In this document: positions 3,670 through 24,233 of the stretch, piece after piece
Layout of the letters: each line of letters opens with the position of its first letter
Numbering within the stretch: position 1 is the first letter of the stretch
Virus record (IMG/VR): IMGVR_UViG_3300048091_000096
Span: 1 to 44,123 of that record
DNA length: 44,123 nt
From: a virus
Direction: 5' to 3' (one strand)
Translations under genes and position numbers: made by a program
Notes under the pieces: generated by a model
Databases searched by the model: none
The model's input: the letters and a program-made list of their open reading frames with translations, nothing else
Told to the model about the DNA's origin: nothing

Positions 3670-3729
3670 AGGGGCGCTCCACTGGGAAAGCTGCATTCTC
3701 AGTAGTAGCGCCCCTGGTACGTATACGCG
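3670..3729 (-). promoter_or_regulatory. Late-gene motif GTATACGTACC, copy A, with abutting inverted repeat
   Basis: In transcription direction, the stop codon of the ejection-protein gene is followed at once by CGCGTATACGTACC (3716-3729). Next to it come the perfect 9-bp arms AGGGGCGCT and AGCGCCCCT (3707-3715 and 3670-3678), and then the tail-fibre ATG. The 14-bp motif is identical to copy C at 18173-18186. No good sigma-70 hexamers were seen. It may be a phage-specific promoter element, a processing site or a protein-binding site. Confidence 0.5.
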
Positions 3730-6700
3730 CTATCGGCCCTTGCTGGCCGGGCTGGAGGCGCCGGTGATGACTCCGCGCGCCACGTCGACCGGGCCTGTTG
3801 GCTTGGCTTTGTCGGTCGCCACGTCGGTGAGGTAGGCCGCCGGGCGCGCCACCGCGCTGGCCGGAACGCCGACGGTCAGCGAGATTAGACTGGCCACGTC
3901 GCGCACAGTCTTCGTCGCCGAGCCTTTGCCGGCCGCGAGCTTGTAGACGTCCGACGGCACGCTGACCGCACTTTCGATCATGCTGATGGCTGGGCTGGTG
4001 CTGATCCGGTCATCGTACGGCTTGCCGTTGAAAGTGTTGGCAGTCGCGTTAATGGTTTGACCGATCACCGGCACCATGGCCGTTCCGGCGCGCAGCGTGC
4101 CCCAGCCGAACACCTGCGCGATCCAGTCGTCCAGGTAGCTGCCGTTCTTGTCGTCATCGTCCGGCCCACCCCGGAACGCCAGGGCGATGGCCTGCGCTAC
4201 CCAGGCCGGCGCGAAGAAGCCGAACAGCAGGATATAGAAGCCGCGGCCGGCTCCTTTGCGCAGGCCAGTATCCCGCGCCACCTTGGCGAACTCGGTACCC
4301 AGGATGTTGGCCTGCATGTTGAAGTAGCCGGCAAACTGGGTGAACATCCGGACGAAGGCGTTGCCGGTCTCGATGCGGCTGATGTCCTCGGGCAGGGTGC
4401 TGCCTTGGGTCTCGCGCACCGCAGAGTCAGCCAGGCGCCGGGCGTATAGCTGCACCTCTTCCTCGGTCATGCCGGCCGGCGCCGTCTCCATCGCCTGGTT
4501 GTAGGCCCCGTGCCAGATGATCGGGCCCATCACATTGTCGACCGCCGACTGCAGGAAATAGGTGTGCTTTTGGGTCCAGGCTACCGCGCGCTGGTACACG
4601 TTCGGACTCAGCAGGATGGCGTTGATGGCGTCAGTCATGGCTCCGACCTCGTTTTCCATCCGGTTGGCCATGTACGGCGAGGCCTCGGCCACGAAGTTGG
4701 CCATCTCCCTGGGCGACCGGATGAAGTCTACGGCGGCGCTGGCCAGGTAGGACGGCTTCACCTTCAGCGCAGCGATCGAGAAGCCGGTGATCTGCTGGGC
4801 CGTGTTCGACACGTTGGCGAACATCGCCGCCATCCCGGCGCGCGAGCGCACTACCGAGAAGAAGCGCATCAGGCCATTGGAGCCCGAGACTTGGGTCTCA
4901 ACTTGCTGGCGCGACGCCCGGTTCAGCCATGGAATCAACAGCCCATCGTAGGCTGCCGGGTCGACCCTGTGGAGTGGTGTGGCCACCTCGCTGCTGCCGA
5001 GGATGCGGCGCACGTCACGCACAGGGCCCTCCAGATGCGAAAACAGCAGCACCTTGTCGATGTGCTGGGACAGCAGGCGCAGGTCCAGCAGCAGCGGGCG
5101 GTTGTACTCGACGCGCGCCTTGGTGAAGCCCTTGCTCGTGCTGGGCAGGGCGTTCATCAGGGTTGCGTTCTCGTCTTCCATGATGCCGCGGGTGCGCGCG
5201 TCGGTCACGATGCGTGCGTCGGTGATGGCCGGCACGTAGCCGCCAGCGTAGCGCCCCCACGGGGTGTCGAAGGCATCGGCCGTGACCTCGTCGAAGTAGC
5301 GGCCGAACACCTCGCGGTGCGCCTTCTGCGCCGCCGGTTTCATCTCCTCGAGGAGGTTCCAGACACCCTGCGCGAAGTCAAAGTCGGCCTTGGTCAGGGT
5401 GCCCTCGTTGATCATGCGGTTGACGAAGGCATCCCAACGGCCGGTGTCCAGCTCGCCATTCTCCATCACCTGGCCCCAGCCGCGGCCCAGCAGCAGCTTC
5501 TTCTTGTTGCCGGCGTTCCCGGTGTGCAGGATGGCGTGCAGCAGCTCGACCTTGCCCATGCCGCCCTGGTCAAAGCCGAAGGTGTAGCCGAGCTCGGGTG
5601 CGGCGATCTTCACTGGCTTGAGGGTCGGCGCGATCGCGTCGAGCAGGTCGCGGTATTTTTTCAGGTACTTCGCTTTCTCGGCGCGGTAGGCGTCGGCCGG
5701 ATCCTTGATCGTGTTCCAGATGAACCGGCGGAACGGGCCCATCTTCGTGCCGGCGCCGTCCTTCGCATCGGCCCAGGCCTCGACGCGGCGCAGCGCGGCG
5801 CGCAGGGATTGCAGCTTCGACAGGTTCACTTCGCTAGGCGTGATGGCGCGACCCTCGCCGGGCGCCGTCTCGGGGATGCCGATTTCCTCCAGTCGCGCGC
5901 GCAGCTGGTCCTGGATGTCTTGCCGGTCGAGCAGGTCGCCGTCGACCTCCATCTGGCGGGAACGCCGCGCCAGGTACCAGAGCGATTCGACCTCGTCGCG
6001 CAGGCCACGGAGTTGCTCGACCGTCATTTCCTTATATGGGCGCGCGTTCTCGGTAGCCGCGTCGATGCGCTCGCGCAGTACCGCTGCCATGGCCGGGTCA
6101 TGGGCCTGCACCTTCTCGAGGTATTCGGTGGCGGCAGCACCGCGCGTGCCGATGCCGAACTCGGCCAGGATGGCGCGGATGGCCATGACCATGTCCAGGT
6201 CGCGCGTCTTCGCCACCTTCTCGTTGTTGCCGCGCCCCATGGCGGCGAAGTGGCCTATGGTTTTCTCGATCTCGGTGCGCGCGTCGAGCGCAGCCTTGGC
6301 GGCGTACGTGTTAATCAGCTGCGTCTGCTTTTCGGCCGCAGCGGTCTGGATGTCGCCCTTCTTGAAAGCGGCGTCAGCGGCGCGGCCGGCGCGCGCGGCA
6401 GCGCGGGTGTACTGGTCCGGGCGCAGCTGGTTCACTGGTGTGCGCGCCACGATCTGCTCGGCGTACATCTTGGCGGCCTTGGCCAGCACGGCCGGTTTGC
6501 CCGCGGCCTTGGCCAGCGCGTTCATCTCGGTGGCCACGAAGCGCGCGTGCGCATTCGAATAGACGGCCTCGTCGACAGCGCGCGCCAGCGCCTTCTCGTC
6601 CACCAGGTCACCGTACCGCTCCAGCATTCGCTGGTCGGTCAGCCGCTCGATCTCGTCGGTCGACTTCTCGGCCGCCAGCAGCTCGCGCACCAGCTGGTCG

Positions 6701-9396
6701 CCCGAATCGAAGCCGAAGAGCTCGGCAACCACATCAGGCGTCAAGCCGCCTTCGGCCGTGACCAGTCCGCGCTGGCCCGTCGGCAGGTATCGCCAGGGCG
6801 CGGCCGGGCCCTCACCGTACATCTCCTTCAGGGTGTCCAGGTTCAGCTTCGTTCCGCTCATGCCCGCGTCTTCCAGGATGCGGCGCTGCGAGCGGTTGCG
6901 GTCGGCGTCTGGCAGTTCGCCGTGGGAAAGGAAGCGGCGCGCCAGGTTGACAGGCTGGGCCATCACCTCGGCCGTGACCTCTTCACGTATTGCCTTGCGC
7001 TTCGCTGCCGCGTTGCCCTGCAGGCGGGCCAGTTCCTTGGCCTTGGCGTTCGACAGCCACTTCATATCGTGCAGCGCGCGCGTCTCCAGTTCGTGCGTAG
7101 CCTTCTCGGCCGCATTGATGCTCAAGGCTCGGTAGGCCGTCCATTCCTCGTCGGTCATGAATTCTGGCTTGGTGCCGAACATGCCCGCGAAACCAGCTTC
7201 GCGTTCGGCCTGCGCGATGGCCTCGCTGGATGCCAGCATCCGGTCGAACACTTCGCGCATCTCGGGCGATACCTCGACGTTGAGCTGGGCCAGGGTCCGG
7301 TACACGTTGACCAGCCAGCTACGCACGCGGGAGAAGAACTTCTGCAGCTCGCCGGTCGGCGCCTTGCCTTCGAACAGATACGCCTCGAAGCCGCGCGCAA
7401 AGGTTTCATGGTGCTCACGCTTCTGATCGATGTCGTAGCCGTTCCAAGTGGCCAGATCCGGCACGCCGAACCACGCCAGTGTCTTCGCCATATCGTCCTT
7501 GACGACCTGCGGCGCATCGGCGCGGCCGGCGAGATCGCTCATCACTTCCAGGAAGAAGTGGCCGGATTCGTGCAGGAATGTCGACAGGTCGGCATGCTGC
7601 AGCAGGGTGATGATGCTCGGCGCCTGCGTGATGTCGTCGCCCAGCGTGATCGAGCCGCGCTGGCCCTTGGGATCGGATTGCGTGTCTCGCGGCTGGTCGA
7701 GCGTGCGGCCGCCGGCCAGCCGGTCGGCGCGCACCTGCAGAGGATATCGCTGCGCCATTTCCTCTGGCGATACGCCCAGACGCGCCGCCTGCACGGCATA
7801 GAAGTTGCCGACCATCGAGGCGTAGACTTTATTCACCTCGGGCGTAAAACGCCCGGTGGCCTGCAACTGGTCCAGCATCCCGGTCGTGACCACCTCGCGG
7901 GAGGCGACGAAGGCGTCATCGTGCTTCTTCGCCTCGAGCGCGCGCGCCACCTCGTCGGCCAGCTCCTGCGCTGCGCCGCTCTGCAGGTATTCGGCGGCCG
8001 TCGTTTGGGTGAACCCGCCGGGCTCGTCCGACAGGTGGGGGATGATCGACTGGGCCAGCTCGGGTCCGGCCATGTTCGCCATCAGGTCGGCCACCGGGAT
8101 CCGGATGTCGGCGCCCGTGTTCGCGGCCTGCTCGAGCTGGGCGGCGACACCCGGCAGCGCCTGCGCCACCTGGTCGAGCATGCCGGACTCGGCCAGCGCT
8201 TTCGGGGTGATCCACACGTTGTCGCGACCATCCTGCATCAGCGACTGGAAGAAGGCCTGCGCCGTGCCAGTGTCACGCTCGCGCACCTTCGACGCCTCGG
8301 CCAGGGTGTTGAACTGGTCCAGGGCCTGGGCGAAGTCGGTGGCGTGCTGCGCTTCCTGGGACCGGCCTTGCACGCGCGCCAGCGCGGCATTGCCGCCTTC
8401 CATGATCGCCGCTTGGGTGACGGTTGCCACCAGGGTCTGGTAGGCGGCGTTCGGGCGCTCGGCGAGGTATTCGGCCCAGGTCTTGTCGGGGTTCGCGATG
8501 GCGGTGTCGATCGCGTCCTGCACTACGGTGGCGATCTGTTCACCCGGCACTTCACGCGCCAGCAGGCCGGTGAGAAAGTGGCCGGCGCCCACCTTGCCCA
8601 GGTTGTTCACCAGGAATTTCATAGGAAGCAGCTCGGTGCCCACCTCGACCGCTGCTTCGGCGGTGCCGCCGACCAGGGCCGCTCCTGGCGTCGCGCCGCG
8701 GGTGCGGTACTTGCCGTAGGCGTCAGCCTCGGTCTGCACGCCGATGGTGGCCAGCAGCGGCGCCGGGCTGCGGGTGGCGATCGATGCCGCCAGGCCGGGC
8801 AACGAGCGCACGGTGCTGGTCAGGCCGCCGTAGACTGCCCGTGCGGTCCCGCCCTGGAATGCGGGGGTATCAACTTCCTGCTCGAGCGACAGCTGCGCGT
8901 ACTTGCTGCGGGCGTCGGCGGCCACCTTGTCGAAGCCGAACAGGTCGGCCAGCTGCATGCGGATACCCTGGCGCGCCATGTCGGCGCCGGTCGGCAGGGA
9001 CTTGAGCAGGCCGGATGCCACGCTGAAGAACGACGGCTTCGGCCCGACGATGGGACCGATGGTCGCCTCGGTGCTGGACAGGTTCTGCACGTCGTCGTGC
9101 GCGATGCGCGCGTTTTCAGGGTCAGCCAGGAACTTCGTGGTGGTCGGGAAGCGCGCGGCCAGGTCCTCGTAGTCGTGCCGTTGGATCGCGGCTTGCCGCT
9201 TCACGTCCTCCGGATAGGCGCGCGCCGATTCGAGCGGGACCCCGGTTCTGGCGCTGGCGCGGCGCAGCTCGGCTTCGAAGTCCGGGTTGGCGTCGACGGC
9301 CACCGACATGGAGGCCTGCGCGGCGCGCGCCGGCTGCTGGTCGCCCAGGTAGGCGGCAACGGCGCCGGCGGTGTCTTGCTGGAGATCGTCAGGCAT
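3730..9396 (-). CDS. Giant internal virion or DNA-ejection protein with zincin-like motif
   Basis: At 1888 aa this is the largest gene of the phage. It lies where podoviruses keep the ejection (gp16-like) protein, next to a transglycosylase internal protein and a small core protein. A zinc-protease-like HESGH motif (HExxH) occurs at 609-613 in TFLHESGHFFLEVM. Ala/Glu-rich, probably helical stretches fill most of the rest. A hydrophobic segment near residue 1720 (FYILLFGFFAPAWVAQAIAL) could insert into the inner membrane during DNA entry. Similar large phage proteins are often labelled large polyvalent proteins. Start: AAAGGAAAG precedes the ATG. Whether the motif is catalytic is unknown. The long plus-strand frame antisense to it is a codon-bias shadow. 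Confidence 0.8.
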   Translation of the reverse strand: MPDDLQQDTAGAVAAYLGDQQPARAAQASMSVAVDANPDFEAELRRASARTGVPLESARAYPEDVKRQAAIQRHDYEDLAARFPTTTKFLADPENARIAHDDVQNLSSTEATIGPIVGPKPSFFSVASGLLKSLPTGADMARQGIRMQLADLFGFDKVAADARSKYAQLSLEQEVDTPAFQGGTARAVYGGLTSTVRSLPGLAASIATRSPAPLLATIGVQTEADAYGKYRTRGATPGAALVGGTAEAAVEVGTELLPMKFLVNNLGKVGAGHFLTGLLAREVPGEQIATVVQDAIDTAIANPDKTWAEYLAERPNAAYQTLVATVTQAAIMEGGNAALARVQGRSQEAQHATDFAQALDQFNTLAEASKVRERDTGTAQAFFQSLMQDGRDNVWITPKALAESGMLDQVAQALPGVAAQLEQAANTGADIRIPVADLMANMAGPELAQSIIPHLSDEPGGFTQTTAAEYLQSGAAQELADEVARALEAKKHDDAFVASREVVTTGMLDQLQATGRFTPEVNKVYASMVGNFYAVQAARLGVSPEEMAQRYPLQVRADRLAGGRTLDQPRDTQSDPKGQRGSITLGDDITQAPSIITLLQHADLSTFLHESGHFFLEVMSDLAGRADAPQVVKDDMAKTLAWFGVPDLATWNGYDIDQKREHHETFARGFEAYLFEGKAPTGELQKFFSRVRSWLVNVYRTLAQLNVEVSPEMREVFDRMLASSEAIAQAEREAGFAGMFGTKPEFMTDEEWTAYRALSINAAEKATHELETRALHDMKWLSNAKAKELARLQGNAAAKRKAIREEVTAEVMAQPVNLARRFLSHGELPDADRNRSQRRILEDAGMSGTKLNLDTLKEMYGEGPAAPWRYLPTGQRGLVTAEGGLTPDVVAELFGFDSGDQLVRELLAAEKSTDEIERLTDQRMLERYGDLVDEKALARAVDEAVYSNAHARFVATEMNALAKAAGKPAVLAKAAKMYAEQIVARTPVNQLRPDQYTRAAARAGRAADAAFKKGDIQTAAAEKQTQLINTYAAKAALDARTEIEKTIGHFAAMGRGNNEKVAKTRDLDMVMAIRAILAEFGIGTRGAAATEYLEKVQAHDPAMAAVLRERIDAATENARPYKEMTVEQLRGLRDEVESLWYLARRSRQMEVDGDLLDRQDIQDQLRARLEEIGIPETAPGEGRAITPSEVNLSKLQSLRAALRRVEAWADAKDGAGTKMGPFRRFIWNTIKDPADAYRAEKAKYLKKYRDLLDAIAPTLKPVKIAAPELGYTFGFDQGGMGKVELLHAILHTGNAGNKKKLLLGRGWGQVMENGELDTGRWDAFVNRMINEGTLTKADFDFAQGVWNLLEEMKPAAQKAHREVFGRYFDEVTADAFDTPWGRYAGGYVPAITDARIVTDARTRGIMEDENATLMNALPSTSKGFTKARVEYNRPLLLDLRLLSQHIDKVLLFSHLEGPVRDVRRILGSSEVATPLHRVDPAAYDGLLIPWLNRASRQQVETQVSGSNGLMRFFSVVRSRAGMAAMFANVSNTAQQITGFSIAALKVKPSYLASAAVDFIRSPREMANFVAEASPYMANRMENEVGAMTDAINAILLSPNVYQRAVAWTQKHTYFLQSAVDNVMGPIIWHGAYNQAMETAPAGMTEEEVQLYARRLADSAVRETQGSTLPEDISRIETGNAFVRMFTQFAGYFNMQANILGTEFAKVARDTGLRKGAGRGFYILLFGFFAPAWVAQAIALAFRGGPDDDDKNGSYLDDWIAQVFGWGTLRAGTAMVPVIGQTINATANTFNGKPYDDRISTSPAISMIESAVSVPSDVYKLAAGKGSATKTVRDVASLISLTVGVPASAVARPAAYLTDVATDKAKPTGPVDVARGVITGASSPASKGR

Positions 9397-9407
9397 TTAC
9401 TTTCCTT

Positions 9408-11585: not shown

Positions 11586-11586
11586 C

Positions 11587-12102
11587 TTATTTCGCTCCCG
11601 TCTTGTTCAGGCTGTACCAGCTGCTGGCGATAGATCCGGCGCTGCCCAGCAGGGATGAATTGGCCGCCATGAATGGGCTGATGGACTCTACGCCGGCCCG
11701 TTTCGCATTGGCGTCGTTGGACATGTTCGTCGCTTCAGCGCGCAGGCCCCAGGCCGCACGCACGGCATTGGTCGTGATGGTGTTGACGTCGTTTTCCTTC
11801 GCCAGATCGGTCGACGTCAGGACCTCGGCAAGGCTGCCACCGCCACTCAGGTCAACCCCGTTGGCCGCCATCGAAACCCGCTGTTTGCTTTTGAGCTGGC
11901 CGGCGCGGGCGGTCACCGCCGCCACCTCGGCATTGCCCTTGGCCAGCTCCTGCTGTGCCGCCCGCTCGGCCAGGTCGGCGTTCAGGTCCTGGATCTCGGC
12001 GCTGCCCAGCATGTTGATCTTCTGCGCCTTGGCGCCGTAATAGCCGCCGATGGCGGAATCCAATGCTCCACCGGCTTGCATTGCCATTCCTGCATATCCC
12101 AT
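11587..12102 (-). CDS. Small internal core protein (T7 gp14-like)
   Basis: This 171-aa protein begins MGYAGMAMQAGGALDSAIGGYYGAKAQ. That Gly/Ala-rich, weakly hydrophobic start is typical of podoviral internal protein A. A helical Gln/Ala/Glu region follows (LAERAAQQELAKGNAEVAAV), then a conserved-looking RVSMAANGVDLSGGGSLAEVL. The start at 12102 is supported by AAGGAGAG seven bases upstream. A longer frame from 12123 is less likely. It precedes the transglycosylase gene by one base, completing a three-gene ejection set. Confidence 0.75.
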   Translation of the reverse strand: MGYAGMAMQAGGALDSAIGGYYGAKAQKINMLGSAEIQDLNADLAERAAQQELAKGNAEVAAVTARAGQLKSKQRVSMAANGVDLSGGGSLAEVLTSTDLAKENDVNTITTNAVRAAWGLRAEATNMSNDANAKRAGVESISPFMAANSSLLGSAGSIASSWYSLNKTGAK

Positions 12103-12112
12103 GGTTCTCTCC

Positions 12113-14173: not shown

Positions 14174-14174
14174 G

Positions 14175-14810: not shown

Positions 14811-14827
14811 GCGGTTCTCCAGAATGG

Positions 14828-14857
14828 AAAAAGGGCGACCCCGAGAGATCGCCCTTT
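14828..14857 (-). terminator. Rho-independent terminator between head and tail genes
   Basis: On the minus strand, AAAGGGCGA (49-57 side) pairs perfectly with TCGCCCTTT around a 10-nt loop, and the hairpin ends in five T's. Arms are 14830-14838 and 14849-14857, and the T-run is 14828-14832. It sits between the 179-aa head-side gene and tail tubular A, and probably lowers transcription from the capsid block into the tail block. Confidence 0.8.
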
Positions 14858-14888
14858 GTCATGGTCGGGGTACTGGCGAAGGGCCGGA

Positions 14889-15428: not shown

Positions 15429-15456
15429 GTGGTTCTCCGAATGAGGTAAATGGGAA

Positions 15457-15472
15457 CGGGGCCGAAGCCCCG
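15457..15472 (-). other. UUCG-tetraloop RNA hairpin downstream of the cement gene
   Basis: On the minus strand CGGGGC-TTCG-GCCCCG forms a perfect 6-bp stem with a cUUCGg tetraloop, an unusually stable RNA hairpin. It lies 10 bases past the cement-protein stop and 29 bases before the next ATG. No T-run follows, so it is more likely to protect the 3' end of the capsid messenger or to attenuate transcription partially than to terminate it fully. Confidence 0.55.
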
Positions 15473-15482
15473 CGCCGGTTTA

Positions 15483-15968
15483 TCAGGCGATGGTGTAGCC
15501 CGACTTGAAGCTGGTGCCCTTGCCCTGGACATCCTTGACCACCGCGGCGGCGATCGAGCAGGTGGCGATGGCGCCCACGTTGATGTAGCGGGTGCCGACG
15601 TAACGCTTGGCGGCGCCCGGGGCCGGGTTGATGGCCAGCTTGATGACGGTACCGACCGGCAGTTTCGCGATCGGCACGGCATCGGTCGAGCTCAGTACTT
15701 CCACGTTGGTGGTCAGCGCCGCGTCGTCGGCATGGATCACCTGGAACTGCACGCTGGTGCCGCCGGTCGGCGCGGACAGGACCGAGAAGGCAACGTTCAG
15801 GTCTTCGCCGGCGCCGATGTCGCCTGGCTGGTTGCTGCCCAGCGACAGCGGCGCCACGTCGATGGTGTTGGCCGACAGGATGGTGCCGGCGCCGTTCACG
15901 GCCTGGCCGGTCAGCTGGTTGGTTGCCGACACCGAGCCCGAGAGGAGCAATGCTGCATCGAGGTACAT
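15483..15968 (-). CDS. Capsid cement (decoration) protein, Bbp16-like
   Basis: This 161-aa protein should bind the outside of the capsid and stabilise it. It opens MYLDAALLLSGSVSATNQLTGQAV. It contains GEDLNVAFSVLSAPTGGTSVQFQV and ends in RYVGTRYINVGAIATCSIAAAVVKD, the layout of the Bbp16 cement family of BPP-1. The sequence is beta-rich with few charged residues. It is encoded directly downstream of the major capsid protein, the usual place. AAGGAA precedes the ATG. Confidence 0.85.
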   Translation of the reverse strand: MYLDAALLLSGSVSATNQLTGQAVNGAGTILSANTIDVAPLSLGSNQPGDIGAGEDLNVAFSVLSAPTGGTSVQFQVIHADDAALTTNVEVLSSTDAVPIAKLPVGTVIKLAINPAPGAAKRYVGTRYINVGAIATCSIAAAVVKDVQGKGTSFKSGYTIA

Positions 15969-16001
15969 GGTTATTCCTTTAAGTCTGGAAAGGCGCCGCC
16001 G

Positions 16002-17021
16002 TTACACGACGCGCGATTCGGTGTTGAGCAGCTGGTCGACCTTGCGCAGCGGGATGCCGAAGAAGGTCGTCATCTTGTACGCGTTGCCGAACTGGTTGGT
16101 TGCAGCCTCGATCGCCAGGGCGCTCGACGACTTGTTCATCGCAGCCACGCGCAGCATCGAATACACGGTGCGGTTCGCGTAGAACACCGGGCGGCCCATC
16201 GCCAGGTTCGGGATCTTGTCCATGGCGCGGATCATCAGGTTGATGATCTGGGTTGCAGCCGACGCGGCCTGGGTTGCCGACTGGCCGACCAGGTCCGACA
16301 CGTTGATGTTGGCGATACGCACGACATAGCGCCAGTCTTTCACGGCCAGGCCGTTTTCCCACGAATACAGAGCCTTCACGGCGCGGAACATGTTGCCGTT
16401 GGCGTCCGCCACGTCGTCCTCGCCCAGGTCGCGGTGCTGCAGGCCAGCCTTCGAACCTTTCGGGAACGGGCAGAACACGGTGTTTTCGCCCCACACCACC
16501 AGGTAGATCGAGGTGTTGTTCGTGCCGGTGCCGCCCGCGTCCATGACGTTGGCGCCGTTGCCAGCGGTCAGCGAGCTGTAGCGGGTTTGCAGGCCGGCGA
16601 ACTGGCGCGGGTCGGTGCCCGGGTTACCGTAGAACATGCAGCCGCTCATGGTCTGGTTCATCGCCTCGATGAACGCTTCGTCTTCCGACAAGCGGAAGGC
16701 GGCCGAATTGTTGTTCAGGGCCAGCAGCTTCAGGTCGATGTGCGAGCGCGCTTCCAGCATGCCGCAGGCTTCATCGATCTGGGCGGTGGTCGACTTGGAA
16801 GCCGGGACGCCCTGGTTGATCATGCGATAAAAGACCTGCGGCAGGCCGGTACGGATGTTGAGGCGGTGGCCAGTCGGCAGGTTGCCTTCGGCGAAGACCG
16901 CGTCTTCCAGGATGTCGTTAGTCTGGGACAGAAGTTCTGCCACCTTCGGCACCTGGCCGTCGGGATCCAGACGCTTTGCCCAGTCGGCGAGGGTGAGGGC
17001 GCCAGCTGCGAGAAGTGCCAT
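16002..17021 (-). CDS. Major capsid protein (Bbp17-like)
   Basis: This 339-aa protein is the shell subunit. It begins MALLAAGALTLADWAKRLDPDG and contains NDILEDAVFAEGNLPTGHR, a clear signature of this podoviral capsid family. Other signatures are CMFYGNPGTDPRQFAGL, YSWENGLAVKDWRYVVRIANI and the C-terminal TTFFGIPLRKVDQLLN. The fold should be HK97-like. GGAG lies upstream of the ATG, inside a 101-bp gap that also holds the copy B palindrome. The scaffold gene lies upstream and the cement gene downstream. Confidence 0.95.
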   Translation of the reverse strand: MALLAAGALTLADWAKRLDPDGQVPKVAELLSQTNDILEDAVFAEGNLPTGHRLNIRTGLPQVFYRMINQGVPASKSTTAQIDEACGMLEARSHIDLKLLALNNNSAAFRLSEDEAFIEAMNQTMSGCMFYGNPGTDPRQFAGLQTRYSSLTAGNGANVMDAGGTGTNNTSIYLVVWGENTVFCPFPKGSKAGLQHRDLGEDDVADANGNMFRAVKALYSWENGLAVKDWRYVVRIANINVSDLVGQSATQAASAATQIINLMIRAMDKIPNLAMGRPVFYANRTVYSMLRVAAMNKSSSALAIEAATNQFGNAYKMTTFFGIPLRKVDQLLNTESRVV

Positions 17022-17090
17022 ATTTGCTTACTCCAGTGTGTGGGTTAAAAACCGATATCTGTTCGGTGAGACTGAAGCGTAGAGAAGGCG

Positions 17091-17114
17091 CGCGGCGGTA
17101 CGTATACCGCCGCG
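17091..17114 (-). promoter_or_regulatory. Late-gene motif GTATACGTACC, copy B, within a perfect palindrome
   Basis: Arms CGCGGCGGTA (17091-17100) and TACCGCCGCG (17105-17114) pair perfectly around CGTA, so the GGTACGTATACC motif is the centre of a 10-bp stem. It lies 8 bases past the scaffold stop and 69 bases before the capsid ATG. It shares the 11-base core with copies A, C and D. It could be a binding site, a processing hairpin or a promoter element feeding the capsid gene. Confidence 0.5.
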
Positions 17115-17122
17115 GTGGGGGA

Positions 17123-17842
17123 TTACTTCTTGTCGCCGCCGTACAGCACCTCGGCGGCCGAGCGGTTCGCGCTAGCCGGTGCACCGCCCATGACGATCTT
17201 GTCTTCGCTGATGGCCTTGCCGGCACGGACCATGAAGCGCACCAGCTCGGGGTGGTTGCCCAGGCCGGTCTCGTTCAGGATGGTCTTCAGCTCGGGGGTG
17301 GCGAAGGTGTCCAGCGCCTTGCGCGCGTAGCCCAGGTTCTCGGGCAGCTTGTCGCCGCCGAACTCCTTGTCAGCGCTCGACTGCTCCTTCCAGTCGGCGC
17401 GCAGCTGTTCCATCTGCTGGGCGTGCTGCTGGGCCATCACCGGGGCCATCTGGTCGATCAGCTGCTGCGCCTTATCCTGCGGGAGGTTCAGCGCGCGCGC
17501 GGTCTCTTCGAACTTGGTGGCGATGGCCGGATCCAGCGCCGTGCCCTCGGGGGCCTTGAACGGCTCGTATTTCTCGGGTGCGCCGGCCTTGGCTGCAGCG
17601 GCTTCCTCGGCGGCGCGGGCCGCGGCCTCGTCGGCGGCGATCTGCTCCGGGGTCTTGGCGCCGGCTTCGCCGCCTTCGCCAGCTTTTTCGCCCGTGGTTG
17701 ACGAGGATTGCGCGGTCTCGCCAGTGGTCTCGCCAGTTGCTGTGGTGGTCGACGTCGTGGCCGTGGTGCTGGCGGTGGCCTCCGTTGCCGTCGTCGCGGT
17801 CGCGGTCGTGGCGCCGTCGGTGATCAGGGTTTCTCCGGGCAT
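17123..17842 (-). CDS. Capsid scaffolding or assembly protein
   Basis: This 239-aa protein should guide capsid assembly. The first 55 residues are low-complexity Thr/Ala repeats, followed by an Ala/Glu-rich helical region. The second half has a conserved-looking core: EKYEPFKAPEGTALD, LPQDKAQQLIDQMAPVM, LRADWKEQSSADKEFGG, NHPELVRFMVRAGKAISED. It is acidic and sits directly upstream of the capsid gene, as scaffolds do. The start at 17842 overlaps the preceding gene by 19 bases and has GGAGC upstream. Its C-terminus, SAAEVLYGGDKK, is nearly the same as that of the 108-aa protein at 21353. Confidence 0.85.
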   Translation of the reverse strand: MPGETLITDGATTATATTATEATASTTATTSTTTATGETTGETAQSSSTTGEKAGEGGEAGAKTPEQIAADEAAARAAEEAAAAKAGAPEKYEPFKAPEGTALDPAIATKFEETARALNLPQDKAQQLIDQMAPVMAQQHAQQMEQLRADWKEQSSADKEFGGDKLPENLGYARKALDTFATPELKTILNETGLGNHPELVRFMVRAGKAISEDKIVMGGAPASANRSAAEVLYGGDKK

Positions 17843-18168
17843 TGCGTTTGCTCCTTCATCATGGTTGCGTAGAGGTCGGGGCAGCGCTCCATCACCTGCG
17901 CGAGCAGGCGCAGGCCTTCGGAGCGGCGGCCCTCGTTGAAAGCCATGGTCATGGCGGTGGGGTCGAAACTGGACTGGAAGACGCCGGCGGCGCCCAACTG
18001 GCGCCAGACGATGCGCCGGCCGCGCGGGTCGGCCATCATCCACAGGAAGTCGGCGATTTCCTGCTGGCGAGCCAGCTCCTGACGCTGGGCCTGGGCCTCG
18101 CGATCGGCGTCCTGCTGGTCAGTATTGAGGGGGTCGAAATCCATGGCCGCCACTGTATGGGCGGCCAT
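17824..18168 (-). CDS. Bbp19-like small head protein
   Basis: The 114-aa product contains EIADFLWMMADPRGRRIVWRQL, then GVFQSSFDPTAMTMAFNEGRRSEGLRLL. This is the signature of the Bbp19-like domain found beside podoviral scaffold genes. Function is unknown; a role in head assembly is inferred from position. Two starts are possible, 18168 and 18144 (MDFDPLN). Neither has a strong Shine-Dalgarno, and both ATGs lie in opposite arms of an 11-bp inverted repeat (18141-18151 and 18160-18170). Confidence 0.8.
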   Translation of the reverse strand: MAAHTVAAMDFDPLNTDQQDADREAQAQRQELARQQEIADFLWMMADPRGRRIVWRQLGAAGVFQSSFDPTAMTMAFNEGRRSEGLRLLAQVMERCPDLYATMMKEQTQCPEKP

Positions 18169-18172
18169 GGGC

Positions 18173-18186
18173 GGTACGTATACGCG
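18173..18186 (-). promoter_or_regulatory. Late-gene motif GTATACGTACC, copy C
   Basis: CGCGTATACGTACC follows directly after the TAA of the LamG-like gene, in the same position relative to a stop codon as copy A and with the same 14 bases. Two bases further on starts an 11-bp inverted repeat (18141-18151 with 18160-18170, 8-nt loop) that includes the next gene's start codons. Confidence 0.5.
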
Positions 18187-19392
18187 TTAGCGCCGGCGGC
18201 GGCGGATGAAGGCGGGCAGCATGCTGGCGATGATCGCGCCGGCGGCGCCGGCAGCGCTGACGGCGTGACCAGCCAGAGACAGGCCGCCGGACACCAGGCG
18301 CGTGCAGGTGCGCGCGACATTGGCGGATCCGCGCAGGGCGATCGACAACAGCGGAGTGACGACAAGCGATTTCACTGTTCGGACGAAGCCGACCGAAGCA
18401 CTACCGCTGAATACTGTCCCACCAGCCGCCGAGCGAACAGCTGCGCGTTGGGCCGGCGCCGCGCCCCCCAGCAGTATGCCGCTCGACGCAACCGGAGTTC
18501 TGCCGCGCGATCGTGGTGCGGTGCCGGACAACGTCAGGCCGCCGACCGGCGCCGACGAGGCGCCGCGCAAGCGTTCTGCAGATCCAGAAAGCACGAAGCC
18601 GCCCACTGCAGTGTAGTTGAAGGACAGCGGGCCGCTCGGGGCAGCGCTGGCCAGGCGTGCCAAGTCGGCGTCATCGCTCGATGCGGCGAAAATCTGCCAG
18701 GGGTTCGCCTGCAGCGAGCGGATCTCATCATCCGACAGCGTGCGCGACCAGCCAGCCACCAAGTCCAGGCGCCCGTGGAGATAGGCGCTCGGGTCCTGAA
18801 TGTCATAGGCGATGCTGCGCACCATCCCGGCGTTCGTCATCGTGGGCGGCGAGTTATACGCGGTGTATATTCCCGTCACCATCCCGATCGAATTTTCGTG
18901 GTTGACAGCGCCGCAGTACGCCTTGTGAATGTTGTTGTTCTTCGTCGCGGCGAATATCCGAACCACGCCTGAAAAGGCGTTCGTGCCAGGCGCGGCAAGC
19001 TGGTTCAAAGAACCGCCGTCGTTCCGGTAGGTGAATTGCGACCCGCCCGAATACGATTCAAGTTTGTAAATGTCGTTACCGCTGCTGGGGCGCTCGCAAT
19101 AGAGCGAGGCCTGCTTGAGGGCGATGCCAATGGCGACAATGGTGGAGTTGTTCAGCGGACCGAGCAACGGGGCACCGGTGCCCACCTGGACCCCGGCGTT
19201 GGTGCCGGCAAAGTTGAGGATAGTGCCGCCGCGCACCTCGGGTCGCCCGTTGCCCTGAAACGACGCGCGCGGGCTCTTGCCGGTGGCATCCGTCAAGGTG
19301 CCGGGGAGATACGCGAATTCCAGCCCCTGAGTGATCGGATTGGCCCAATTGATCCTGGCGCGCGAGGCCGGCTGGCGCCGCATCGGGATCAT
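18187..19392 (-). CDS. LamG-like phage structural protein with C-terminal repeats
   Basis: This 401-aa protein has a probable LamG/concanavalin-like jelly-roll domain at about 20-240. It is recognised by GLEFAYLPG near the start and by LVAGWSRTLSDDEIRSLQANPWQIF at its end, a motif typical of phage-borne LamG proteins. Residues 250-385 hold about six degenerate 20-24-residue repeats built on GG-x-hydrophobic-x-LSGSA-x-RxR. The last residues are very basic (FIRRRRR). It may decorate the head or neck and bind glycans. It starts immediately after the previous stop (TAAATG). The virion role is inferred from position among head genes. Confidence 0.7.
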   Translation of the reverse strand: MIPMRRQPASRARINWANPITQGLEFAYLPGTLTDATGKSPRASFQGNGRPEVRGGTILNFAGTNAGVQVGTGAPLLGPLNNSTIVAIGIALKQASLYCERPSSGNDIYKLESYSGGSQFTYRNDGGSLNQLAAPGTNAFSGVVRIFAATKNNNIHKAYCGAVNHENSIGMVTGIYTAYNSPPTMTNAGMVRSIAYDIQDPSAYLHGRLDLVAGWSRTLSDDEIRSLQANPWQIFAASSDDADLARLASAAPSGPLSFNYTAVGGFVLSGSAERLRGASSAPVGGLTLSGTAPRSRGRTPVASSGILLGGAAPAQRAAVRSAAGGTVFSGSASVGFVRTVKSLVVTPLLSIALRGSANVARTCTRLVSGGLSLAGHAVSAAGAAGAIIASMLPAFIRRRRR

Positions 19393-19764
19393 TTACAGCC
19401 CCGTCACATGGGTAAATTGGCCGTCGACGGTCACGGCGTTGACGGTGTTCCCGAACGCGATGGCGCGCAGGTACTTCACCCCTTTGTCGACCGGGATGGA
19501 CGCAGTGCCGCCGCTGCCTGCGGCGCTGTCGCCGAGCATCTGGTCGTAGAAGGTCCAGAGGACGTTATCCGGCGATGCCTGGATCTCGATGGTGCCGCCA
19601 GCCGTCGGCGGGCTGGCCCCGTTGGTGATCTTGGCGTGGGCCACGCCGCCATAGCCGATCGACAGGTCAATCACGTTGCCGATGACTGGCGATGCGCGCG
19701 TGGTGCCGGCCGGGACGTTCGTGCCAGCGGGGAACAGGAGGGAAGGGCTTTTAGTGGCTGACAT
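19393..19764 (-). CDS. Small beta-rich structural protein of unknown function
   Basis: The 123-aa protein is not recognised. It is rich in Gly, Ala, Thr and Ser, with alternating hydrophobic residues (GGTIEIQASPDNVLWTFYDQML, then GVKYLRAIAFGNT), which suggests a beta sandwich. That general pattern, a difference-to-standard value with SPDN and YLR, also occurs in the 115-aa protein at 20996, so the two may be related domains. It shares one base with the upstream gene (TAATG), pointing to coupled translation in the head operon. Confidence 0.6.
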   Translation of the reverse strand: MSATKSPSLLFPAGTNVPAGTTRASPVIGNVIDLSIGYGGVAHAKITNGASPPTAGGTIEIQASPDNVLWTFYDQMLGDSAAGSGGTASIPVDKGVKYLRAIAFGNTVNAVTVDGQFTHVTGL

Positions 19765-20186
19765 TACTTGAGACTCCCGTCGTCGTTAAACATTGCATCG
19801 GCGATGTCCAGGCGCGACACGTATACGGGGCACAGTGGCGCGAGTGCACGGAGGTCTTCAGCCTCGTCAACCGTGAAATCGAGCGCTGGCGCCATCTCGT
19901 CGATGCTCGCGAGCGTGCTATCCGCGCCGAAGTCGAGCCCTTTGCCGTTCAGGGCGTTCCAGGCAACCTCGACGATCGCATCGACCGCGGCGCCGGCTTT
20001 CAGCTTGCGAAGGATCGATTTGCCATGCGTGCAACGGTTGATGATGCCGAGTGCGTCGACCCAGCATTCGCCGCGCGCGAACTCGGGTTGCTCGTTCAGC
20101 CCGGCCGCCAGCGCCTCGGTGTCGCGACGACTCATGGCCTCGGCCAGGTCAGCGCGTGCGAGGATGCGTTCTTTAATCGTCGCCAT
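19764..20186 (-). CDS. Hypothetical protein in head operon (140 aa)
   Basis: This 140-aa protein is soluble and mixed alpha/beta, and acidic in its second half. Visible features are an N-terminal helix (IKERILARADLAEAMSRRDTEAL), CWVDALGIINRCTHGKSILRKLKAG, and an acidic C-terminus ending FNDDGSLK. No family was recognised. It lies between two beta-rich structural genes with one-base and one-codon spacings. It could be a chaperone or a minor virion part. Confidence 0.6.
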   Translation of the reverse strand: MATIKERILARADLAEAMSRRDTEALAAGLNEQPEFARGECWVDALGIINRCTHGKSILRKLKAGAAVDAIVEVAWNALNGKGLDFGADSTLASIDEMAPALDFTVDEAEDLRALAPLCPVYVSRLDIADAMFNDDGSLK

Positions 20187-20187
20187 G

Positions 20188-20589
20188 TCAATCCGCCGTA
20201 ATCGTAGGGGTCAGTTTGATGTTGTCGCCGCTCGCGGCGGGCGTGAACGACGTGAAGGTCTCCGCCAGCACCAGGTCACCGCTGGTCGCGCGCGTCGCGA
20301 AGTAGCCGTAGATCGTCGTGTTGCCGGTCAGCGGGCCGGTGAAGGTGGTGGTCTGCTGGGCGTAGGTCGCGGTCGATGGCGCACCGCCGCTCACGGCCCA
20401 GTTGGCGCCGGCCAGGTTCATGGCCGCGTAGCCGCCGCCCGCCGCCTCGGTGTAAGTGGCTGCCGTGTCGGTCTCGCTCGGGGTGATGTTGTTCGTGAAG
20501 AAGCGGTACACCAGGTTCTCGGGCGTGGCCTTGTTCACCAGGTATGACAGGGCGATCACTTCGCCGCTGTTGGGGACCATGATCGTCAT
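20188..20589 (-). CDS. Beta-rich phage structural protein (133 aa)
   Basis: This 133-aa protein has a pattern seen in many small phage structural proteins: VIALSYLVNKATPENLVYRFFTNNITPSETD, GGYAAMNLAG, and a closing GYFATRATSGDLVLAETF. Gly, Thr and Ala dominate and no membrane segment is present. Related proteins are often encoded near head-fibre or decoration genes. The ATG overlaps the upstream stop as ATGA, so the two are probably translated together. Confidence 0.65.
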   Translation of the reverse strand: MTIMVPNSGEVIALSYLVNKATPENLVYRFFTNNITPSETDTAATYTEAAGGGYAAMNLAGANWAVSGGAPSTATYAQQTTTFTGPLTGNTTIYGYFATRATSGDLVLAETFTSFTPAASGDNIKLTPTITAD

Positions 20590-20993
20590 GCTGCTTCCTC
20601 CTGGCCGATGTAGCCGAACTCGCGCAGGTGCGCTTCGCCTTCATGGCGCGAGGCCGGGACCTCTTCGATGTAGGCGGCGCGCAGGCTGCTCAAGTCGGCG
20701 TGGCGCGTAGCCGGCACCGCGTTGTCGCTGGCGTCGAGCTCCATCAGCGTGGTGCCGTCGGCCTTCTGCAGCGTGACGGTGGCCACGCCATCGGCGCCGC
20801 AGCCGGTCAGGATGCCCAGTTGACCATCGTGCACGACCCACATGCCGATGCGTGCGCCAGCGGTCTCCAGCGCCTGCTGGTTCACGTAGGGCCGGGGCGG
20901 GACGATGAATTCAGCGGGCGCGGCGGTCGGCTCGGGAGGAGTCGGGGCCGGGCCCGGCTCGGCGCCAAAGAGGCGCTCGATCAGTTTCTTCAT
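20586..20993 (-). CDS. Hypothetical head-operon protein (135 aa)
   Basis: The 135-aa protein begins MKKLIERLFGAEPGPAPTPPEP, a basic amphipathic helix followed by a Pro/Ala linker. The centre (RIGMWVVHDGQLGILTGCGADGVATVTLQ) looks like a small SH3-like barrel that ends in VDA-type strands. The acidic C-terminus ends HLREFGYIGQEEAA. Function is unknown. The short helix plus linker could anchor it to another head component. It lies 3 bases after the 115-aa gene. Confidence 0.6.
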   Translation of the reverse strand: MKKLIERLFGAEPGPAPTPPEPTAAPAEFIVPPRPYVNQQALETAGARIGMWVVHDGQLGILTGCGADGVATVTLQKADGTTLMELDASDNAVPATRHADLSSLRAAYIEEVPASRHEGEAHLREFGYIGQEEAA

Positions 20994-20995
20994 GG

Positions 20996-21343
20996 TTATT
21001 CCTTCAACAGGATAGTGACGGTGATGTTGGTGGTGCCGTCGCCGCTGGTGACCACGGGCTTGATGTAGCGCGTGGCTTCGGCCACGAACTTAATCGACGC
21101 GGCCGAGATGTTCAGGGCGGCGCCTTGCGGGTCGGTGAGCACGTTCCAGTTGGCGCCGTCGTTACTGCCCTGCAGCTGCAGGTTGCCATTGGCGCCGAAG
21201 GCCCCGGACACCTGGACGCTCTTGTCGGCGTATTGCGCCTGGTCAAGCGGGGCGCCGTCGGCACCGTTGGTCAGGCCGACCCAGGTGGCGACACAGGCCT
21301 TACTGGTCTTCGTGGGCGTGGTCACGTAGGAGATGGTGGGCAT
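20996..21343 (-). CDS. Small beta-sandwich structural protein (115 aa)
   Basis: This 115-aa protein contains VATWVGLTNGADGAPL, then SVQVSGAFGANGNLQLQGSNDGANWNVLTDPQG, and ends RYIKPVVTSGDGTTNITVTILLKE. This is a recognisable layout of small phage proteins that measure like a discoidin or decoration beta sandwich. It is acidic and without membrane segments. It is encoded between the capsid staple-like gene and a 135-aa unknown. A head-decoration role is likely but unproven. Confidence 0.65.
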   Translation of the reverse strand: MPTISYVTTPTKTSKACVATWVGLTNGADGAPLDQAQYADKSVQVSGAFGANGNLQLQGSNDGANWNVLTDPQGAALNISAASIKFVAEATRYIKPVVTSGDGTTNITVTILLKE

Positions 21344-21352
21344 GACGTTTCC

Positions 21353-21679
21353 TTACTTCTGGCCGTACAGCACATCGGCGGCCGACTTGCTGGGTAAGTT
21401 GATATCCATGTCGGTGATCTGCAGGTCGACGCACGTGCGCATCTCTTCGCCTGCCTTGCTGGACTGGGTGGCGCGCTGGCTGGTGCCAGTGACCATGACG
21501 GTGATCGTCGCCGGCATCGAGGTGCCGACCTTCGGCAGATCGGTGATGCCCAGCTTCTTCAGGGTGTCGTCGTCCAGGTACAGGGTCAGGCCGTAGGGGT
21601 ATTTCGGCAGGCTGTCGTCGCTGGGCTCGACGCCGTACTCGCTTTTCGCCTCTTCCTTGCTCAATGCCAGATTGGTCAT
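21353..21679 (-). CDS. Capsid staple-like protein
   Basis: The 108-aa product has LPKYPYGLTLYLDDDTLKKLGI followed by LPKVGTSMPATITVMVTG, the signature of proteins annotated as capsid staple in podoviruses. These proteins bridge capsomers. The C-terminus reads SAADVLYGQK, almost the same as the scaffold's SAAEVLYGGDKK, although the two proteins are otherwise unrelated. It is encoded directly after the portal gene (21-bp gap). The family call comes from memory of the YPYGL and LG(I/V)..LP(K/E)VG pattern. Confidence 0.75.
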   Translation of the reverse strand: MTNLALSKEEAKSEYGVEPSDDSLPKYPYGLTLYLDDDTLKKLGITDLPKVGTSMPATITVMVTGTSQRATQSSKAGEEMRTCVDLQITDMDINLPSKSAADVLYGQK

Positions 21680-21700
21680 GGCGGGGTCCTCTCGGTGGGG

Positions 21701-23380
21701 TTATTGGCCGAAGCCCTGGGCGAACATGCCCATGACGTCGGAAGCGGCGTTGCCGCCGGTGGTCGGCGTGGCGCCGAGGTTGCGTGCCGCTGCCGATGCC
21801 TGCTCTGCCGCCTGGAGCTGGGCGGCCTGCTGCTGGGCCTGCGCACGCTGCTGGCGGATGATGGCCACCTTGTCCGAAGGCGTGATCAGGCTCGGCGGCA
21901 CGCCAAGCATGTCGCTGTAGGCGTCCACCCACTGGTCGGCGTCGAACTTATCCAGTACATCGGGCTTCATCTGGGCGATCACACCGAGGTTTCCCGTAAA
22001 GCGGTCGACGCCGTTGGTGGCCACCGCGCGCTGGGCCTGAGCCAGGACGGACGTGTACTTGACGTCCAGCTGCTGGCCGTGCAGCTCGGGCGGCGGCGGC
22101 GGCAGGGCATTGGCCGCCAGCAGCAGGTCGAAGGCGTTATCGACCAGCGGGCTCAGCGCTTCGTTGTCCAGGCGCTCGATCACCGGCCCCAGCATCAGCA
22201 GCTTCTCCTCGTGGCGCTCGGCCACCTCGGTGGCGGTCATGCCCGACTTGTCCAGATTCGACAGCATGAGGAACAGGTCGGTGTAGAAGGACTGGTTGAT
22301 GCGCTGGCGCACTTCGCCCATGTCTTCGCGCAGGTGGTCCAGGTTCAGATTCACTTGCCAGGCCGACTGGATCGCGCCTTTGCCGGAGTTCGTGGTCGGG
22401 TCGTAGTAGCTGATCCCGCCCGGCAGGGTGTCCAGCGGCTGGTTCTTCATGGTGATGGGCACCTGCAGCGGCGGCTTCGTCTGGTAGTCGATGGCCTGGC
22501 CCTTGCGCAGATTCTGGTGTTGGAGCTGCTTGATGTCGCCCAGCGCTTCCATGCCCGGGCCGTTGCCGTAAATGTCGCCGCCGGCCACCTCCCAGCGAGG
22601 GCAGATCGCTGGGAAGCGCTTGAAGCCGGATTCGCGCAGGTAGCGATCCTCGTTCACGCCCTGCTCGAAGTAGACGCTGGACCAAGCCATGTTCTGCGGA
22701 TCCAGCTTCGACGCGTCGCGATCGGCGCGCGGCTCGATCGCGTGGATGACGGTCACCCAGCTGTCCAGGTCGCCACGGTCGTACAGCGCCTTCACTGCCG
22801 GGCTGACCTTCTCGATGCCGAACTCCTTCACCAGGCCGCCCACGGTGGTCTGGAATTCGCGGTACAGGGTGCAGACCCCGCCCCGGAAATCGGTGGTCAG
22901 GCAGTACTCGCCGGTGGTCAGCGGGTAGTGGTGCAGCACGTTGCGGAAGTCGGGCACAATCAGGCTGGCGCCGGTGCCGAAGCCGCCCATTTCGTTGTAG
23001 AGGGAATGCAGCGCACGGTACGTGTTGGACTTCTGGAACACGGCCAGGATGAGGCCGGTCACGTCGTCCAGCCACTGCTTGACGGCCTGCGACTTCATCA
23101 TGTCCACGTCCTTGACCTTCAGGCGGAACCAGGGCCGCGCCGGCGAGGTGGCGCCGCCCATCAGGCCAGCCGACAGGATGCGCAGCGCGCGCGTGCCGGT
23201 CGAATCGTAGATGGCGTTGTGGCGCCGCTCGCCGCGATTGCGGTCCTCGATGAAGAAGCGCCCCTGGCGGGGCAGCAGGTTCTTGGAGATTTCCTGCCAG
23301 TGCGAGAACCAGCTGGCGCGCTCGCGCTTGAGCATGCCCCAGCGGTTCAGGAACTGGTTGCGGGTGATCGGTGGTGCCAT
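21701..23380 (-). CDS. Portal (head-tail connector) protein
   Basis: This 559-aa protein should form the dodecameric portal. It shows the T7 gp8/BPP-1 connector pattern: an N-terminal LKRERASWFSHWQEISKNLLPRQGRF, RALRILSAGLMGGATSPARPWFRL, FGTGASLIVPDF, GNGPGMEALGDIKQLQHQNLRKGQAIDY and SFYTDLFLML-NLDKSGMTATEV. A Gln/Ala-rich C-terminal helix follows (about 500-540), probably the barrel. The start at 23380 overlaps the upstream stop as ATGA. The long frame upstream of it has no similarity. Confidence 0.95.
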   Translation of the reverse strand: MAPPITRNQFLNRWGMLKRERASWFSHWQEISKNLLPRQGRFFIEDRNRGERRHNAIYDSTGTRALRILSAGLMGGATSPARPWFRLKVKDVDMMKSQAVKQWLDDVTGLILAVFQKSNTYRALHSLYNEMGGFGTGASLIVPDFRNVLHHYPLTTGEYCLTTDFRGGVCTLYREFQTTVGGLVKEFGIEKVSPAVKALYDRGDLDSWVTVIHAIEPRADRDASKLDPQNMAWSSVYFEQGVNEDRYLRESGFKRFPAICPRWEVAGGDIYGNGPGMEALGDIKQLQHQNLRKGQAIDYQTKPPLQVPITMKNQPLDTLPGGISYYDPTTNSGKGAIQSAWQVNLNLDHLREDMGEVRQRINQSFYTDLFLMLSNLDKSGMTATEVAERHEEKLLMLGPVIERLDNEALSPLVDNAFDLLLAANALPPPPPELHGQQLDVKYTSVLAQAQRAVATNGVDRFTGNLGVIAQMKPDVLDKFDADQWVDAYSDMLGVPPSLITPSDKVAIIRQQRAQAQQQAAQLQAAEQASAAARNLGATPTTGGNAASDVMGMFAQGFGQ

Positions 23381-23733
23381 CAGCCGCCCCCGCCGCCGAG
23401 CAGGGTGGTCTTGCCAAGCAGGAGCGCGCTCGGGTCGATGCCGGCCGGGCCGGTCAGCATCGTGCCTGCTGCGCCGCCCTTGTTGGACGACAGCAGAGCG
23501 GCCGTGTCCGGCTTCTTCTGATTGGCGCGGTTGGTGGCCTGCTGAGCCTGGTCGGCGGTTGCCTTCGCCGCAGCCGTGGCCTGATCGGTCGCCTTCTGCT
23601 GCAGGTCGTTGGCCTTCTTCCCTTGCTTGTACGACATGTACGTCGGCCCGCCCAGCACCATGCCGACGGCATCGTTGGAGACGAACGGCCCGACCAGTAG
23701 GCCGCCCACGGCGTTGTTGCTTGAGATACCCAT
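23380..23733 (-). CDS. Small portal-adjacent virion protein (117 aa)
   Basis: The 117-aa product has a Gly-rich hydrophobic N-terminus (NNAVGGLLVGPFVSNDAVGMVLGG), a charged helical middle full of Gln/Ala/Lys (LQQKATDQATAAAKATADQAQ), and a C-terminal GTMLTGPAGIDPSALLLGKTTLLG. That C-terminal pattern (G-x-L-TGP-G-DP-x2-LxLGxxTLLG) is conserved in small proteins next to podoviral portals. Function is unknown; an internal or membrane-interacting virion protein is plausible. Its stop overlaps the portal start. Confidence 0.65.
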   Translation of the reverse strand: MGISSNNAVGGLLVGPFVSNDAVGMVLGGPTYMSYKQGKKANDLQQKATDQATAAAKATADQAQQATNRANQKKPDTAALLSSNKGGAAGTMLTGPAGIDPSALLLGKTTLLGGGGG

Positions 23734-23736
23734 CGG

Positions 23737-24177
23737 TTAGATTCCCTTCATGACAGTGACATCGGCGGGCTGGTAGCCGCGCCGTTCCAGTGTTGCGGCC
23801 AGAGGCGTGCCCGCCCGCGTGTGCCACAGCATTCGATTTGCGCCCCTCGCCTTGGCGGCCTGCTCGGTGGCAGCGATCAGGCGCGCGCCGGCGCTGGTCT
23901 TGCGCCAGGCCGGCAGGACGAAGAGGGCGCTGCTCTCGCAGGTGAGGATGTCCGGGTTGAACACGTGCGGGCCGAGCACCGCCGAGGAATAGCCGACCAG
24001 CTGCTCGCCGTCGAAGGCGACCAGCACGAACATGACACCGCGCTGCTGGAGCAGCCGCACCAGGTCGACGTTCGGCCGCAGCTCGAAGTCGAACCCGGTT
24101 TCGGCCCAGTTCTCGCGCAGCATGTCCATCACGCCGTCGATGTGATCGGCCGCCTCGATTTCACGTATGACCAACAT
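23737..24177 (-). CDS. GNAT-family acetyltransferase
   Basis: The 146-aa protein has the GNAT fold: N-terminal IREIEAADHIDGVMDML, MFVLVAFDGEQLVGYSSAVLG, ESSALFVLPAWRKTSAGARLIAATEQAAKARG (acetyl-CoA binding loop near R-K-T-S-A-G), and a C-terminal ATLERRGYQPADVTVMKGI. It should move an acetyl group to an amine, target unknown. GNAT genes between terminase and portal recur in this phage group, suggesting a virion- or assembly-linked role. AGGAGGGG precedes the ATG. Copy D of the late motif lies just upstream. Confidence 0.85.
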   Translation of the reverse strand: MLVIREIEAADHIDGVMDMLRENWAETGFDFELRPNVDLVRLLQQRGVMFVLVAFDGEQLVGYSSAVLGPHVFNPDILTCESSALFVLPAWRKTSAGARLIAATEQAAKARGANRMLWHTRAGTPLAATLERRGYQPADVTVMKGI

Positions 24178-24219
24178 GCACCCCTCCTATGGGCATGCAT
24201 GCTATGAGGGGGGCTGGTG

Positions 24220-24230
24220 GGTACGTATAC
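24220..24230 (-). promoter_or_regulatory. Late-gene motif GTATACGTACC, copy D
   Basis: The 11-base core follows the terminase large-subunit TGA after three bases (CCG), the same placement as copies A and C. The 42 bases between it and the GNAT ATG hold an imperfect inverted repeat (CCCCTC-ATA against TATAGGAGGGG-like sequence, around 24181-24212) around GCATGCATGC. Confidence 0.45.
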
Positions 24231-24233
24231 CGG

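Follow-up and report, generated by a model that had tools for sequence, protein, structure and literature searches.

The 11-mer GTATACGTACC, repeated in the late region of a podovirus, very probably makes up the upstream half of a late promoter of the phage, where it takes the place of the usual −35 sequence. The best explanation of the whole pattern, and one that we regard as likely, is a late promoter with a sigma70-type −10 at which an HTH protein would read the element and activate the late genes. This reading is based on the fixed −10 spacing, the single orientation, conservation in the same gaps, substitute sequences at unchanged spacing, and co-variation with one HTH protein. RNA start at the elements, HTH binding, and activation are the parts that we infer from sequence, and the setting of late-gene dosage, suggested in an earlier note on this DNA, is a plausible candidate role.

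The window, which is the whole 44,123-nt stretch analysed (IMG/VR virus record IMGVR_UViG_3300048091_000096), is of the BPP-1/epsilon15 podovirus type and carries an integrase and a CI-like repressor. A close relative of the window phage is a prophage in Massilia sp. PDC64. A gene at 39548–40924 matches phage phosphoadenosine phosphosulfate reductase families and is probable cargo.

Four exact copies of the 11-mer are present at 24230–24220, 18183–18173, 17107–17097, and 3726–3716 (copies 1–4), all on the minus (late-gene) strand, and there is no further exact copy on either strand. The earlier note had placed the four copies in gaps only and on this strand, which was confirmed; a first-order Markov model predicts about 0.0009 exact copies on both strands. 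As upstream elements, copies 1 (24220–24231) and 3 (17097–17108) read GGTATACGTACC, and copies 2 (18173–18184) and 4 (3716–3727) read CGTATACGTACC. Copy 1 lies 3 bases past the stop codon of the terminase large subunit, copy 2 the same distance past that of a 401-aa protein, copy 3 15 bases past the protease stop, and copy 4 3 bases past the stop of an 1888-aa protein. Of the distances given previously (0, 3, and about 15 bases), 3 and 15 hold for the 11-mer, and 0 holds only for the 14-mer CGCGTATACGTACC, which the copies at 3716 and 18173 share as described. The downstream genes, all on the minus strand, are also as claimed: copy 1 precedes a GNAT acetyltransferase gene (23737–24177) and then portal (21701–23827), copy 2 a Bbp19-like gene (Pfam PF25181; corrected to 17824–18144) and then protease (17123–18043), copy 3 the major capsid gene (16002–17021), and copy 4 the tail-fibre gene (corrected to 1687–3666).

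Each copy is followed exactly 15 bases downstream by nAnnnT, in the form TAnnnT at three of the four. The minus-strand hexamers are TAGCAT (24199–24204, 17 nt past the 10-mer GGTATACGTA), TACAGT (18152–18157, with the probable Bbp19 ATG at 18144, 7 nt on), TACGCT (17076–17081, followed by a leader of ~54 nt with GGAG and the capsid ATG at 17021), and GAGAAT (3695–3700, before the tail-fibre gene). GAGAAT is kept before the tail-fibre gene in G002, G003, G005, G006, and G007. Against minus-strand backgrounds of 3% of positions for nAnnnT and 0.17% for TAnnnT, the one-spacing coincidence has p values of 7e-7 (4/4) and 2e-8 (3/4), respectively. A sigma70-consensus promoter (TTGACA-like −35 and TATAAT-like −10, 16–18 nt apart) was not found at window positions 16000–27000; at the elements, only its −10 half is present. 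In its 10-mer form, (G/C)GTATACGTA, the element lies at about −39 to −30, the place of the −35 box, and 17 bases separate it from the −10 hexamer. The arrangement is that of an activator-type sigma70 promoter, a −10 with a conserved box at a fixed upstream distance. An imperfect copy at 19816–19826 was rejected as accidental, as the earlier note had suspected, because it lies inside a gene and the fixed distance leads to CGATGC, which does not qualify as a −10 hexamer.

Relatives were taken from IMG/VR as capsid homologues. The expectation that related phages carry the motif in the same gaps held for G001–G007, which have the 11-mer or one-base variants, always in one orientation and with an unchanged distance to the hexamer; it failed for most others, in which the 11-mer is absent and a different repeated word occupies those gaps. 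One variant, GTACACGT, is found at every site of G005, which indicates concerted change. The repeated word is GGTGCGCGTG in G010, G011, and G017, GGTGTGCGTG in G012, GGTGCGCGTA in G013 and G015, and GGTACCCGTA in DC33 and MW202722. BPP-1 has three copies of GGTGCCCGTG, with TACTGT, TAGAGT, and TAGCCT. The consensus across relatives is GGTRYNCGTR-N17-TAnnnT. Within phages, 73 of 382 pairs of gap regions share a 10-mer followed by N17 and a −10-like hexamer, compared with 3 pairs when one region was reverse-complemented. Element cores in 31 phages number 138 sense and 10 antisense, and TAnnnT follows at a spacing of 17 in 71 sense sites, of 18 in 2, and at no antisense site, counts that are not fully independent since the element words were partly found by requiring the hexamer in the region-pair search. 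Of the 76 TAnnnT hexamers within 10–23 nt of cores in these phages, 71 are at spacing 17. Wherever sites occur, the 10-mer spans about −39 to −30, and none of the 31 phages has an element that looks like TTGACA. No clear element at Bbp19 was found in 29 of 68 loci of a later-fetched set. A scan of viral contigs for an exact element plus TAnnnT returned >118 stretches, of which ~5 contigs are known relatives and many are expected chance matches.

Additional element-hexamer sites were observed at the HTH/terS junction (L023:4399, L038:4384, L221:1972, G020:5187, and BPP-1 near 26294) and ~4.5–5.5 kb downstream of the capsid start (L023, L038, L073, MW202722, and others). The extra site of MW202722 precedes the gene after a 'phage stabilization' gene. 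The window lacks sites at the HTH/terS junction and at ~5 kb past the capsid start. In L001, L014, and L029, the capsid-site element is within the protease gene, and the −10 overlaps protease Leu-Tyr-Pro codons. Compared with these, the protease stop codon comes earlier in the window, and the former coding end (17071–17110) serves as promoter.

The Bbp19 start codon is 5–10 bases past the hexamer at 29/29 sites, mostly 6–7, and the same range is found at six GNAT and four tail-fibre sites. Bbp19 starts lie at this distance in 39 further loci, for which the site search itself included the 5–10 base range as a criterion. Clear Bbp19 elements were not found in G014, L227, and L033. Because the start codon coincides with the expected transcription start, late Bbp19 mRNA is predicted to be leaderless wherever the site is clear. 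This placement also sets the window Bbp19 start at 18144, not 18168.

The probable reader of the element is a 109-aa HTH protein encoded on the minus strand at about 26479–26805, a Bbp27 homologue with a recognition helix at ~residues 73–80 and lysine at residue 78. Its gene is followed by one small ORF and then by the terminase genes; in BPP-1, bbp27 directly precedes bbp26 terS. Bbp27, annotated "endonuclease," is 53% identical to the window protein over the HTH region and has the same gene position, and a homologue is present in 18/18 near-complete records. Searches of 37 family members against Pfam, PHROGs, and NCBIfam gave generic HTH matches only and no known Ltr family; one member matched phrog_836 weakly. 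The AlphaFold model is confident for a core of three helices and poor elsewhere (mean pLDDT 66.9). A PDB fold search with this model gave no significant match, and the nearest were DeoR-type and sigma region 4 HTH domains. The family alignment is too diverse for scanning sequence collections. Distances between HTH proteins correlate with distances between elements (Mantel test, r 0.59; 0.57 given capsid and 0.52 given TerL).

In the proposed mechanism, the 10-mer element would take the −35 place and host sigma70 region 2 would read the TAnnnT or nAnnnT −10. Host polymerase alone would start poorly at these promoters because they have no consensus −35. The HTH protein would bind the element by its recognition helix, recruit or stabilise sigma70 polymerase, and in this way turn on four units at once: GNAT/portal, Bbp19/protease, capsid, and tail fibre. 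Transcription would begin at the start codon of Bbp19, and in some relatives likewise at that of GNAT or tail fibre. An HTH protein bound over the −35 region could also block polymerase, many phage HTH proteins are repressors, and co-variation points to the probable reader of the element and not to the sign of its effect. The promoters would then be real and the HTH protein a repressor or timing switch; we consider this unlikely, since an element unlike TTGACA in all 31 phages leaves little to repress without help, and the HTH gene heads the late block as do known late activators (RinA/Ltr, PMC13123087).

One residue of the recognition helix predicts one element base. At residue 78, A, D, G, or S goes with G at element base 6, and E, H, K, M, N, or R with A or C there. 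The rule was spotted by eye in the alignment before testing, with the two residue classes drawn post hoc, and fits 31/31 phages in which it was first seen. Among 1213 variable columns of the HTH, portal, capsid, TerL, and Bbp19 proteins, residue 78 is the sole column that splits G from A/C at base 6 without error. A ranking of columns by z-scored mutual information was set aside because clade-specific columns of low variation dominated it. In a held-out set of 16 phages, 11 have both a residue that belongs to one of the classes and a clear element, and all 11 agree; two with Tyr at residue 78, outside the rule, have A at base 6. A second test used 227 new loci, with the rule fixed first and elements chosen without bases 4–6. 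Here 27/28 distinct helix-element combinations agree (19/19 and 8/9), and the miss is L331. On the portal tree, base class changes ~11 times and 80/81 tips match, in a tally that puts Tyr and Gln in the non-G class. L340 has late-region stretches up to 95–98% identical to BPP-1 and an HTH protein of a different type (D at residue 78, K in BPP-1), and its elements are GGTGCGCGTA where those of BPP-1 are GGTGCCCGTG. Relative to L339 (BPP-1), L340 has other elements before both GNAT and Bbp19, which amounts to a natural exchange of regulator together with sites.

Slightly less probable than a repressor role is that another factor (a host regulator, an alternative sigma, or another phage protein) reads the element and that the HTH protein co-varies through shared ancestry only. 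Element distance follows portal protein distance as closely as it follows HTH distance, and the HTH-element partial correlation given portal is 0.31 (p 0.0006), falling after dereplication to r 0.17 (p 0.09). Shared ancestry fits poorly with a recognition-helix column that alone separates the base classes without error, with matched changes across the portal tree, and with the joint change of HTH type and elements in L340; capsid and TerL distances also add little once HTH is included. With the HTH protein as reader and activator, a wider system can be put forward tentatively, as possible rather than probable. BPP-1-like phages may share one late system in which an ~80–110-aa single-HTH protein alone replaces sigma70 −35 recognition. 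Protein and ~10-bp box would co-diversify into many versions, with residue 78 setting one base, to give mutually distinct promoter codes, and Bbp19 would always be leaderless.

Inverted repeats at the copies, also described in the earlier note, are real; for the most part they are distinct from the promoter that they overlap, with arms on either side of the −10. Copy 3 sits, as claimed, in the middle of an inverted repeat with perfect 10-bp arms (CGCGGCGGTA-TACG-TACCGCCGCG, 17091–17114). Three further repeats lie on the minus strand around the −10 hexamers of copies 1, 2, and 4. At 24181–24211, CCCCTC...GAGGGG has a 3′ arm that overlaps the GNAT Shine-Dalgarno AGGAGGGG (ATG at 24177); it has p 0.14 in the window alone and is significant in G001, G002, G004, G005, and G007. 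At 18141–18170, a perfect 11-bp inverted repeat, CCATGGCCGCC-loop-GGCGGCCATGG, holds the −10 in its loop and the start codon in its 3′ arm. At 3670–3715, a strong hairpin, AGGGGCGC...GCGCCCCT (z −6.2), holds the tail-fibre ribosome-site GGAG in its 3′ arm, and the probable start is ATG 3666, not 3696. The hairpin is strongest at the tail fibre, where the window clade, BPP-1, G015, and G018 have the same layout in unrelated sequences (z down to −7.5). Among 30 leadered sites, 16 have significant complementarity (p<0.05) between the stretch from element through hexamer and the leader. The ribosome site is predicted to be more open in promoter-initiated than in read-through RNA at 27 of the 30. 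Where the 5′ arm precedes the start point, as at several sites other than the predicted leaderless ones, only read-through RNA would have its ribosome site masked by the hairpin. The hairpin is an accessory feature since it is absent in several phages. In BPP-1 (L264), the tail-fibre site (6126–6186) has a long perfect stem with the −10 in its loop, formable only by read-through RNA. An inverted repeat near the left end of the window (66–127; 29-nt arms, 93% complementary, 4-nt loop) is possibly a two-way terminator.

The earlier note had offered a promoter, an antiterminator, or a processing element. The promoter is strongly supported, and neither antitermination nor RNA processing gained support. 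Put/qut-like antitermination or RNA-processing elements on a read-through late mRNA would suit elements that follow stop codons, three of them in or beside inverted repeats, and the terminator-like BPP-1 tail-fibre stem followed by TTTTT. Such elements are improbable given a DNA-level −10 spacing fixed at 17 despite diverse elements, and hairpins that are absent or different at many sites where the element-hexamer pair persists. Least credible are boundary sequences for modular recombination between phages, which would fit identical words at gene borders and gene exchange nearby among relatives and would predict neither a one-sided hexamer at fixed distance, nor genome-wide phage-specific versions, nor recognition-helix co-variation.

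With the late-promoter reading, the recurring 11-mer becomes part of a transcription circuit that can be tested across a large podovirus group, one that includes BPP-1, the model phage for diversity-generating retroelements. It singles out bbp27 as the candidate regulator, casts doubt on the "endonuclease" annotation of its product, and yields a residue-to-base rule for which nature supplies many variants. Should binding be confirmed, these phages would provide a ready set of related activator-promoter pairs for regulator/site co-evolution. In the literature within reach, which left out most subscription papers, nothing direct was found on Bbp27, BPP-1 late promoters, or Rauchvirus promoters, and no paper was found that tests Bbp27 or its three GGTGCCCGTG sites. 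In phiV10 (L271), the gaps 2924–3356 and 20801–20995 share other words, ACCTGAAAGGTAATA and CATATGTGGTT..GGTAATA, and the gene for p55, a small 'transcriptional regulator,' is found upstream of terS; the system may be analogous. In BcepC6B (L270), the gaps 2743–2830 and 18982–19039 share AACGCAC(T/G)AT(C/T)CTGCG, and a small regulator, gp01, lies upstream of terS.

The system is set apart from known types of phage activator. RinA/Ltr genes (ArpU-type, in phages of Gram-positive bacteria) are at the head of the late block (PMC13123087), and the window HTH gene is alike in position. In contrast to RinA/Ltr, the sites here are many and dispersed rather than one late promoter, and the element is in the −35 region rather than in upstream direct repeats. 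At T4 middle promoters, a MotA box centred near −30 replaces the −35 while sigma70 still reads the −10 (PMC6755090). The element here also replaces the −35, with its centre at ~−34.5. Homology of the HTH family, the one family searched, was not found to MotA/AsiA, nor to RinA/Ltr apart from the phrog_836 match, so the system is not filed as a member of either type. Longer transcripts of T4 gene e hide the ribosome site in a helix, and local late-promoter transcripts lack its 5′ arm (PMC3014915). The predicted hairpins at portal/GNAT and tail-fibre genes, at about half of the tested sites, are similar, whereas sigma here is predicted to be host-supplied. Lambda cI mRNA from PRM, a phage promoter, is leaderless and begins at the start codon. 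Bbp19, in contrast, is a late virion-block gene, and its predicted leaderless arrangement is kept in all examined phages with a clear site.
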